A DNA stretch of 64,000 nucleotides from contig JAHHHU010000003.1 in the NCBI GenBank assembly GCA_019359175.1, positions 1 through 64,000 on the forward strand. The letters run 5' to 3'. The position numbers and the translations under genes are program-made. This DNA is from Phormidium tanganyikae FI6-MK23. GTDB lineage: Bacteria; Cyanobacteriota; Cyanobacteriia; Leptolyngbyales; Leptolyngbyaceae. Every line of letters begins with the position of its first letter. Positions within the stretch are counted from its first letter, which is position 1. Shown here one piece after another: positions 46,457-49,762 of this stretch. The notes beneath the pieces are model-generated. The model was not told the origin of the DNA, did not search any database, and saw only the letters and a list, made by a program, of their open reading frames with translations.

Positions 46457-47723
<1,267 letters not shown>

Positions 47724-47879
47724 TTAGATGCGTCCGCTTCCCCGATGGGCGAGAACTTGCGGAACGGATTGAGCAGCGTTTAACTGAGCGGCGGGGGAGA
47801 AACGCTCGGTGGCGTAGGAACCGATAGCAACTGCTCCGATGAGCCAGCTAAAGAGTGCAACCAGAGTTTGAGCGCGCAT
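47724..47879 (-). CDS. patX: PatX-type precursor carrying the RGSGR HetR-inhibitory peptide
   Basis: A 51-residue gene directly upstream of hetR on the same strand. It starts ATG 47877-47879 with GAGGA nine bases upstream, and stops at 47724-47726. The N-terminus is an export signal or membrane helix (MRAQTLVALFSWLIGAVAIG). A short Ala/Gln-rich stretch follows, and the protein ends HRGSGRI, with RGSGR at residues 46-50 (47730-47744). RGSGR is the pentapeptide of PatS and PatX that binds HetR and blocks DNA binding. Position beside hetR, size, signal and the terminal HRGSGR(I) match the PatX family. Processing and activity are inferred. Confidence 0.88.
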   Translation of the reverse strand: MRAQTLVALFSWLIGAVAIGSYATERFSPAAQLNAAQSVPQVLAHRGSGRI

Positions 47880-47995
47880 AATAGTACGTCCTCAGTGTGA
47901 TATACCCCTTTTCATCCTTGGGGGCATCACATCAGGACAAAACTGATGAATTCACTCAAATTCGGTAGTCGTACCTACTTGACAAACATTGTGTG

Positions 47996-49762
47996 TTAGT
48001 GTAAAGAATTGGTGTTCAGCGCTTCTACGAGAATCCAGTTTCCGGACTGATTATATTTACCGAAGCCGCTCAGTAGTTGCCCGGATTGTGTTTGCTGGAG
48101 TTGGGTGTTGATTTCGGCTTGTACGGTGACGATCGACCATTTTTGCTCAGGTTTGTCGATCGAAGTCAGTGTATAATCTTGTACTGCTTTACATTCAAAG
48201 ATTCCTGAGAAGAGTTGAGCGGTTGCGCTAGGGGGTTGAATCCTAGATGTAGCGGGACATTCGCCGCTGTTGGGATAGCTTTCTGGATGATCAATATAGT
48301 AGCGTTGCCAGTACTGCCATTCGGGGTGCGAAGGTGACAAATTGTGCAAAGGGAAAATTGCGGCGGGTGCGGATGGGTCGGTGATTAGGGCGAGTTGGAG
48401 CGATCGTACATCTAGCTCTCGCGGCTGACAGTTTTGCTTGATGCACAAAGCGGCTGCCATTCCTGCGGCTTGTCCGATGCCTAAAACGACGGGCTGTAAG
48501 CGAGTTGCGCCGTTTGCCATGTGCGTGACGGAGATATTTTTTTCGCAAACTAGGAAATTGTCGATCGATTGTGGGACGAGGCAAGTGTAGGGAATCGTGA
48601 ACGGCGTTCCTGTCCAGCGTCCACCCCAGCGAATCGATTTAGGTTTGAGGGGAATATCGCCGCTCGGATAATGGTGATCGTTGGCGTAGTTGCCGATCGC
48701 GATCGATTGACAGAAGTTTTCGGCGTATTCGCATCCGATCGCTTCGACTTGGAACGGTAAGGGGGCGACTCGTCCTTTTGGCAGTAGGTCTTGTTCGCGT
48801 AGGGTTGTGATACCGATGAGACGGCGACTTTCTCGATAGTAGGGATGGATGGCAAGTGCGCCTGTCGGGAAGGTGTCTTCTGCAAGTCCGTAGCGGGTTC
48901 CGAGTTGGGATTGAATGAAGTGGGCGAAGCTGAAAGAGTGATCTTTGGCTTCTTGGTGAAAGTTCGATCGTGTTTCTCGGTTCAGCAATCGTTCCACGCC
49001 TTCGCCGTAATCGTTGCCGGAGATGGGCCAATTGATCATGAAGCGATCGCCGGGTAAGCGCCCGTAATTTAGGAAGGCTTCGGCTCCATATTTTGTCCAA
49101 GCATTCTCGAATTTTGCTCGATCGTAATTTACGGGTTTGGGAATTTCGGGGGCTTTCGATTCGCCAAAGTCGCGCATGACGACAACCCAGGTGGGGGCTT
49201 GGACTGGGTAAGTTTGGGTGAGTTCGTTTTGTTCGATCGGGGCACTCGGTTCATTAAATTCGGATTGTAGTTCCCAACCCCAGCGGTAAGGGATGTTTCC
49301 GAGTTCGAGCAGATCTCCGAGTTCGGTGGCATCGATCGTGATTTTTGCCTCGATTTTGACGGTTTGGAACTCTACGCCGAGAATACGATCGACGTTTCTC
49401 AATACTTTCTCCGGTGTTTCGCCTTGAATCCACTGTAGATTCGGCAAGGCTTTCACCCAATCGGCGAAGATTTCGGTTCCGATTCGCGGCTCATACGTGA
49501 AAAAGCTCACCCAAGCATTGTCTAATCCTTCGGATTGTCGCTGTTCTAATTCTCGTAAGAATGCGCCCCAGATTCCAGTTTGAAAGGCTGTGAGTTCGTT
49601 GCCATCGGGAGCGGTGACACCTGCACTGGTGAGCATTCCGCCTAACCAAGAGAATTCGCTGACTAAAATCGTTTTGACTCCCCGCCTTGCGGCTTGGATT
49701 GCTGCGGCTGTTCCTCCGGTTCCGCCACCCACGACCAGCACATCTGCATTTAATTTCTGCAT
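47996..49762 (-). CDS. FAD-dependent oxidoreductase
   Basis: The 588-residue protein opens with a Rossmann FAD site (ADVLVVGGGTGGTAAAIQAA) and SEFSWLGGMLTSAGV. Further family blocks are IDATELGDLLELGNIPYRW, NWPISGNDYG, YPSGDIPLKPKS, CEKNISVTHMANGATRLQPV and LGIGQAAGMAAALCIKQNCQ. It matches the large FAD_oxidored family found with carbohydrate and secondary metabolism genes. The C-terminal ~90 residues form an extra small domain. No signal peptide is seen. The substrate is unknown. Confidence 0.87.
   Translation of the reverse strand: MQKLNADVLVVGGGTGGTAAAIQAARRGVKTILVSEFSWLGGMLTSAGVTAPDGNELTAFQTGIWGAFLRELEQRQSEGLDNAWVSFFTYEPRIGTEIFADWVKALPNLQWIQGETPEKVLRNVDRILGVEFQTVKIEAKITIDATELGDLLELGNIPYRWGWELQSEFNEPSAPIEQNELTQTYPVQAPTWVVVMRDFGESKAPEIPKPVNYDRAKFENAWTKYGAEAFLNYGRLPGDRFMINWPISGNDYGEGVERLLNRETRSNFHQEAKDHSFSFAHFIQSQLGTRYGLAEDTFPTGALAIHPYYRESRRLIGITTLREQDLLPKGRVAPLPFQVEAIGCEYAENFCQSIAIGNYANDHHYPSGDIPLKPKSIRWGGRWTGTPFTIPYTCLVPQSIDNFLVCEKNISVTHMANGATRLQPVVLGIGQAAGMAAALCIKQNCQPRELDVRSLQLALITDPSAPAAIFPLHNLSPSHPEWQYWQRYYIDHPESYPNSGECPATSRIQPPSATAQLFSGIFECKAVQDYTLTSIDKPEQKWSIVTVQAEINTQLQQTQSGQLLSGFGKYNQSGNWILVEALNTNSLH

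Follow-up and report, generated by a model that had tools for sequence, protein, structure and literature searches.

The 51-codon gene that precedes hetR in the cyanobacterium Phormidium tanganyikae FI6-MK23 is almost certainly the patX of this strain. It is a real and ordinary patX, belonging to a kind of gene that has been in print since 2018 (Elhai and Khudyakov 2018, as given in papers citing it) and that is covered by an NCBIfam model. Unlike in all of its congeners, the reading frame in this assembly stops directly after RGSGRI, and the C-terminal tail is cut off. The analysis concerns a stretch of 64,000 nucleotides (positions 1 to 64,000 of contig JAHHHU010000003.1), here referred to as the window, together with hetR loci from across the cyanobacteria. 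The host is presumably filamentous, judging from the presence of hetR and the names of its relatives.

The role of PatX and HetR in filamentous cyanobacteria without heterocysts is a question that this genus can address. Close relatives with and without a PatX tail provide a testable contrast, and a conserved upstream element that is one base away from the heterocyst version can be tested in laboratory strains.

A short gene upstream of hetR

The gene starts with ATG and, by the open reading frame listing, its 51 codons and stop specify the 51-aa product MRAQTLVALFSWLIGAVAIGSYATERFSPAAQLNAAQSVPQVLAHRGSGRI, which begins with MRAQTL and ends in LAHRGSGRI (Table 1). Near the N-terminus there is a hydrophobic run, TLVALFSWLIGAVAIG, of export type by appearance. 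patX lies 367 nt upstream of hetR on the same strand. The hetR product matches NF009718 with 558 bits against a cut-off of 489 and carries the Pfam domains Peptidase_S48 and HetR_C. Three of the traits by which PatX is recognised are thus present: a short protein with RG(S/T)GR near its C-terminus, a hydrophobic N-terminus of export type, and co-occurrence with hetR, of which the assembly has a single match.

Table 1. Features of the patX-hetR region, in window coordinates
Feature	Position	Strand	Evidence
hetR, 299 codons, presumed target	46457..47356	-	NF009718 558.2 bits; R223 kept
Hairpin between patX and hetR, arms GGAGGTCA / TGACCTCC	47633..47662	-	Covariation, genus alignment
Tail remnant, ten codons TEYDFMTIPM and old stop	47691..47723	-	Congener alignment; cut off by TAA 47724-47726
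patX	47724..47879	-	ORF, conservation, dN/dS; NCBIfam NF047413 17.2 bits, under cut-off 30
Codons for HRGSGR, putative HetR-binding hexapeptide, residues 45-50	47730..47747	-	Translation; congener comparison
Ribosome-binding site GAGGA, 9 nt 5' of patX ATG	47889..47893	-	Read from sequence
TCCTGA at -58 from patX ATG, DIF1-like promoter element	47932..47937	-	Motif counts in patX upstream regions
GTA-N8-TAC, NtcA-like site, 99 nt upstream of patX ATG	47965..47978	-	NtcA consensus; comparison within the genus
FAD-dependent oxidoreductase gene upstream of patX	47996..49762	-	Pfam

Short open reading frames are common in this DNA, with 68 of at least 30 aa over about 7 kb, and such abundance would favour a chance frame containing a chance RGSGR. 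We simulated the 639 bp that separate hetR from the FAD-oxidoreductase gene 20,000 times with a first-order Markov model. The rate of RG[ST]GR was 0.36 % when any of the six frames counted, and only 0.02 % when the motif had to lie in an ATG frame and follow 25-80 residues. The frame is moreover conserved in all seven congeners, which by itself rules out a chance origin, and we give that reading a vanishingly small probability.

A search with the peptide across 58 genomes, its own included, gave matches in 26 (E up to 1), a good many of which were weak. Each of the seven other genomes of the genus matched over the full length (E 2.1e-27 to 3.4e-6). In all seven, patX is located 314-368 nt before hetR as measured from the congeners' stops; the corresponding distance in the window, from the old stop, is 334 nt. 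RGSGR is kept throughout, the preceding histidine in 6/7, and the segment conserved in all seven ends with RGSGRI. Across codons 1-51, dN/dS ranges from 0.17 to 0.70 and is below 1 in 15/15 pairs, drawn from six of the eight genus sequences and resting on small counts. The preliminary description had proposed a 51-codon gene with an HRGSGRI end and a ribosome site upstream of hetR, and the sequence, the simulations and the congeners bear it out. Its patX identity is upheld by the position, the hydrophobic N-terminus, HRGSGR, the constrained frame in relatives and a DIF1-like element, and the position beside hetR, which it had called conserved, is indeed so in 7/7 congeners.

Profile models capture this gene poorly. 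NF047413 places a weak match correctly on the 51-aa product at 17.2 bits, under its 30-bit cut-off, and finds no match at E up to 1 in a search of the strain's own genome; a Pfam search with the peptide returned no match at E up to 1, and Rfam gave one match only, far under its gathering score. We treat the failure to reach the NF047413 cut-off as a limit of the model and not as a biological trait. In one Nostocales family the same model finds a match in 112 of 118 genomes (E up to 0.001), and in 111 the match lies above cut-off; of 291 genomes across the class, 22 exceed the cut-off, with no congener among them. We discarded low-scoring NF047413 hits (E up to 1), since 11 of 14 control genomes gave them too, as well as a looser RGSGR DNA pattern, whose 168 places were fewer than the 213 of its reversed control.

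Gene neighbourhoods were more informative. We examined 80 named hetR loci, the 80 best of 311, with up to 2.5 kb around each and little upstream DNA in some. Upstream of hetR, 38 of them contain a short frame on the same strand that includes RG[ST]GR. All 38 read RGSGR, of which only the serine is informative as the search required RG[ST]GR. Three of the named loci, L002 (LEGE 13415), L003 (FACHB-63) and L004 (Prado105), have a patX identical to that of congeners G002, G007 and G004, respectively, and are not independent of them. The other 42 show no such frame in the available flanking DNA; many belong to the Nostocales, and the rest come from outside that order, Laspinema and Planktothrix among them. 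A 2025 survey of 474 genomes, which used profile matches above trusted cut-offs, gives hetR without patX as common, at 12.0 %, with a Leptolyngbya among the examples (PMC12756182). Part of these genomes may well hold missed genes like the one in the window, and profile surveys of PatX at cut-offs, this one included, would then report hetR without patX where patX exists.

The C-terminal tail and its premature stop

All seven congener frames extend past RGSGR, by 12 codons in five (G001, G002, G003, G004 and G006) and by 10 in two (G005 and G007). In the window the isoleucine codon ATC is followed by TAA, at a position occupied by GAA or GAG in the first five congeners and by TAT and CAC in the remaining two; the old stop of the window, another TAA, coincides with the stop of those five. 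A stop directly after RGSGRI is found only in the window strain among the eight genus members. The ending was therefore not conserved as previously claimed: the comparison with relatives proposed earlier, for a short frame ending in HRGSGR, recovered both the frame and RGSGR in 7/7 congeners, but the frame does not end there.

Judged by this alignment, either an 11-residue tail has recently been lost through one nonsense codon or the stop is an assembly error. A single base would explain the stop, and the tail frame is intact down to the old stop, just as a sequencing or assembly error in a fully tailed gene would leave it. The assembly, 96.3 % complete in 77 contigs, gives no positive sign of such an error, and we consider it rather unlikely. 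Somewhat less probable still is that the stop marks the onset of decay, with patX becoming a pseudogene in this strain. A nonsense change at a single codon, set against seven intact congeners, and a remnant that can still be read would fit incipient decay. However, the parts known to matter precede the stop, the body differs from that of G003 by 2 nonsynonymous and 4 synonymous changes, and PatX without a tail exists in 8 of the 38 named loci.

We prefer the loss of the tail from a working gene. The tail evolves fast: over the same 15 pairs its dN is 0.25-1.13 compared with 0.018-0.18 for the body, which argues that the tail sequence matters little. In the 38 named loci the tail measures 0 residues in 8, 3 in one, 4 in one and 7-16 in 28. 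In 84 loci of one Nostocales family it ranges from 2 to 19 residues, with 14 residues in 53; eight further loci of that family were set aside: L242 reads RGGGR, and the other seven encode longer proteins in which RGSGR is deeply internal. Having a tail is thus the usual condition, and the loci of the Nostocales family included no tail-less form. In 14 further PatX genes that lack a tail, inspection by eye revealed no obvious remnant beyond the stop, so that recurrent recent loss through nonsense codons is not supported.

Some tails and end regions are unusual in other ways. Cysteines follow RGSGR in several PatX tails, two in L009, L021, L022 and L159 and one in L024 and L025 (for example RGSGRCEALQCV). 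The long PatX forms of L224, L227, L233, L240, L241, L269 and L271 have an internal RGSGR, behind which the end region recurs in degenerate form (KGGSRRDLM or HRGEGRRR, for example); the part bearing the motif appears to have been partly duplicated. In L151 a patX-like gene has its end region twice in tandem, as HRGSDRREF and HRGSGRREF, with one motif altered.

Upstream element, NtcA-like site and intergenic hairpin

A further trait of PatX genes is a DIF1 element, defined as TCCGGA at -35 of Anabaena patS, patX and hetR and described as hetZ-dependent (PMC7377430). At -58 the window has TCCTGA, not the canonical TCCGGA. Across 43 patX upstream regions (the 38 named loci and five of the genus) TCCTGA occurs within 300 bp in 42, compared with an expected 4.0 and a maximum of 9 in 100 simulations, and in 39 it is positioned 57-68 nt before the first ATG. 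TCCGGA occurs within the same distance in 5, with 2.4 expected. The choice of ATG shifted some motif distances; the counts that follow for the named and the Nostocales loci were taken over all possible ATGs. Of 38 named hetR-adjacent patX genes, 37 have TCCTGA and one (L055) has TCCGGA. L077, whose record is named Richelia, has TCCTGA. The Nostocales family gives the reverse picture: 92 loci from 92 genomes divide into 88 TCCGGA, 4 TCCGGG and no TCCTGA, made up of 84 loci (80 TCCGGA, 4 TCCGGG) and 8 without a fitting frame, all with TCCGGA 63 nt upstream. Twelve loci of other families comprise nine TCCTGA, two TCCGGA (L149 and L150) and one with neither (L145). The TCCTGA/TCCGGA split is strong, and it is a split between groups of loci rather than one by heterocyst formation assigned locus by locus.

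For every patX, the 2018 PatX paper reportedly finds a DIF1 motif no more than 69 nt upstream, and it may describe the TCCTGA form; among the literature matches listed, no paper had the TCCTGA form in cyanobacteria as its subject by title. A canonical TCCGGA 167 nt before the window ATG was rejected as the patX promoter, as it sits in the 3' end of the FAD-oxidoreductase gene, and a scan for consensus sigma-70 promoters found none. As a tentative and rather doubtful scenario, TCCTGA could be ancestral, the heterocyst lineage having switched to the palindromic TCCGGA when an ancient PatX-HetR pair was joined to heterocyst control; the recent tail loss in the window would in addition offer a natural test of whether tail cleavage is required.

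Further upstream, the window contains GTA-N8-TAC, which we take to be the NtcA consensus. The site is equally placed in G001, G003 and G006 and in L002 and L004 (identical to G002 and G004), and is absent from that place in G005 and G007. Anywhere within 300 bp it is found in 14 of the 43 patX regions, with 1.5 expected, and shared ancestry alone could explain part of its conservation. The site thus stands at -99 in most of the genus, though nifH was not found in the window assembly.

Between patX and hetR, a hairpin is kept with compensatory changes in six of the eight genus members. In these six sequences, 3 of 8 pairs have changed on both sides (shuffled mean 1.4, with 32 of 500 shuffles reaching 3), and 95.8 % of cells are paired, a level reached by 1 of 500 shuffles and compared with at most 62.5 % in slid controls. 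A terminator scan did not accept the hairpin and scored no terminator-like site; it may therefore terminate transcription in some other way, mark a processing site or bind a protein.

HetR, a proposed mechanism and known systems

Compared with solved HetR chains, the window HetR keeps R223, a residue reported to be needed for PatS binding (PMC7476756). Elsewhere in the assembly, RG(S/T)GR directly before a stop was not found, none of four pattern places decoding to the motif; the genome may still carry an internal copy of the kind present in HetN. No nifH match above cut-off was found in the 96.3 %-complete assembly, the best candidate being ChlL (226 bits with nifH, 486 with ChlL), and nitrogen-fixing heterocysts are thus unlikely.

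In Nostoc, PatX is described as exported and processed by PatP, and HRGTGR as binding HetR at 88 nM with loss of HetR-DNA binding (PMC12756182). By analogy, patX would most likely be transcribed from the DIF1-like TCCTGA promoter, possibly with NtcA input; the hydrophobic N-terminus would direct export of the 51-residue precursor, and trimming outside the cytosol would yield an HRGSGR-type peptide that would enter cells, bind the HetR Hood domain and make HetR leave its DNA targets. As the nonsense codon has removed the tail, at most one residue would be left to trim C-terminally. We consider it likely, with orthology and mechanism both folded into the judgement, that patX gives rise to such an exported, trimmed peptide acting on HetR, and an inhibitory mechanism in itself is probable, if a little less firmly held. 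Against this account stand the sub-cut-off NF047413 score, the empty search of the strain's own genome and the 42 of 80 hetR loci without a frame.

That the product is a diffusible or exported inhibitor of HetR, as the preliminary description had concluded, we only infer, because PatX effects in the non-heterocystous Leptolyngbya sp. BL0902 looked largely HetR-independent. Deletion transcriptomes of that strain did not reveal PatX acting through HetR, and the authors regard its effects as basically independent of HetR: in the two groups of genes on which loss of patX and loss of hetR act oppositely, the double deletion resembles the patX deletion (PMC11298460). A PatX acting independently of HetR in this non-heterocystous lineage would follow the same pattern. 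However, BL0902 is described as having three hetR-like genes (PMC11298460) compared with the one match in the window assembly; patX is linked to hetR in 38 of 80 named loci, with RGSGR in all 38 and in 7/7 congeners, and R223 of HetR is conserved. We therefore regard HetR-independent action as unlikely and retain the peptide acting on HetR. Its output in this strain would probably be control at the level of the filament (necridia, growth) and not heterocyst spacing, a proposal made because no nifH was found.

Compared with other carriers of the motif, the product is not HetN, a larger, full-size protein with an internal RGSGR, being 51 aa long with the motif at its end. It resembles PatS in having RGSGR near the extreme C-terminus but is not PatS, given as 13-17 aa ending in RGSGR (PMC7476756), since it is 51 aa long with a hydrophobic N-terminus and ends in RGSGRI, one residue beyond the motif. 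Like PatX of Nostoc/Anabaena PCC 7120 and other filamentous cyanobacteria (PMC7761841, PMC12756182, NF047413), it is a small protein that accompanies hetR and has a hydrophobic N-terminus and, toward its C-terminal end, RG(S/T)GR; a DIF1-like element lies about 60 nt before its start codon. Unlike PatX of the Nostocales, its tail is a single residue compared with 2-19 (84 patX genes) or longer (seven more), its upstream element is TCCTGA instead of TCCGGA, it adjoins hetR and it scores below the NCBIfam cut-off. By description, there is also a parallel with PatX of the non-heterocystous Leptolyngbya sp. BL0902, whose gene likewise directly precedes hetR and is predicted to have a DIF1 promoter (PMC11298460); in that strain the two genes are proposed to be co-transcribed, whereas here a covarying hairpin lies between them.
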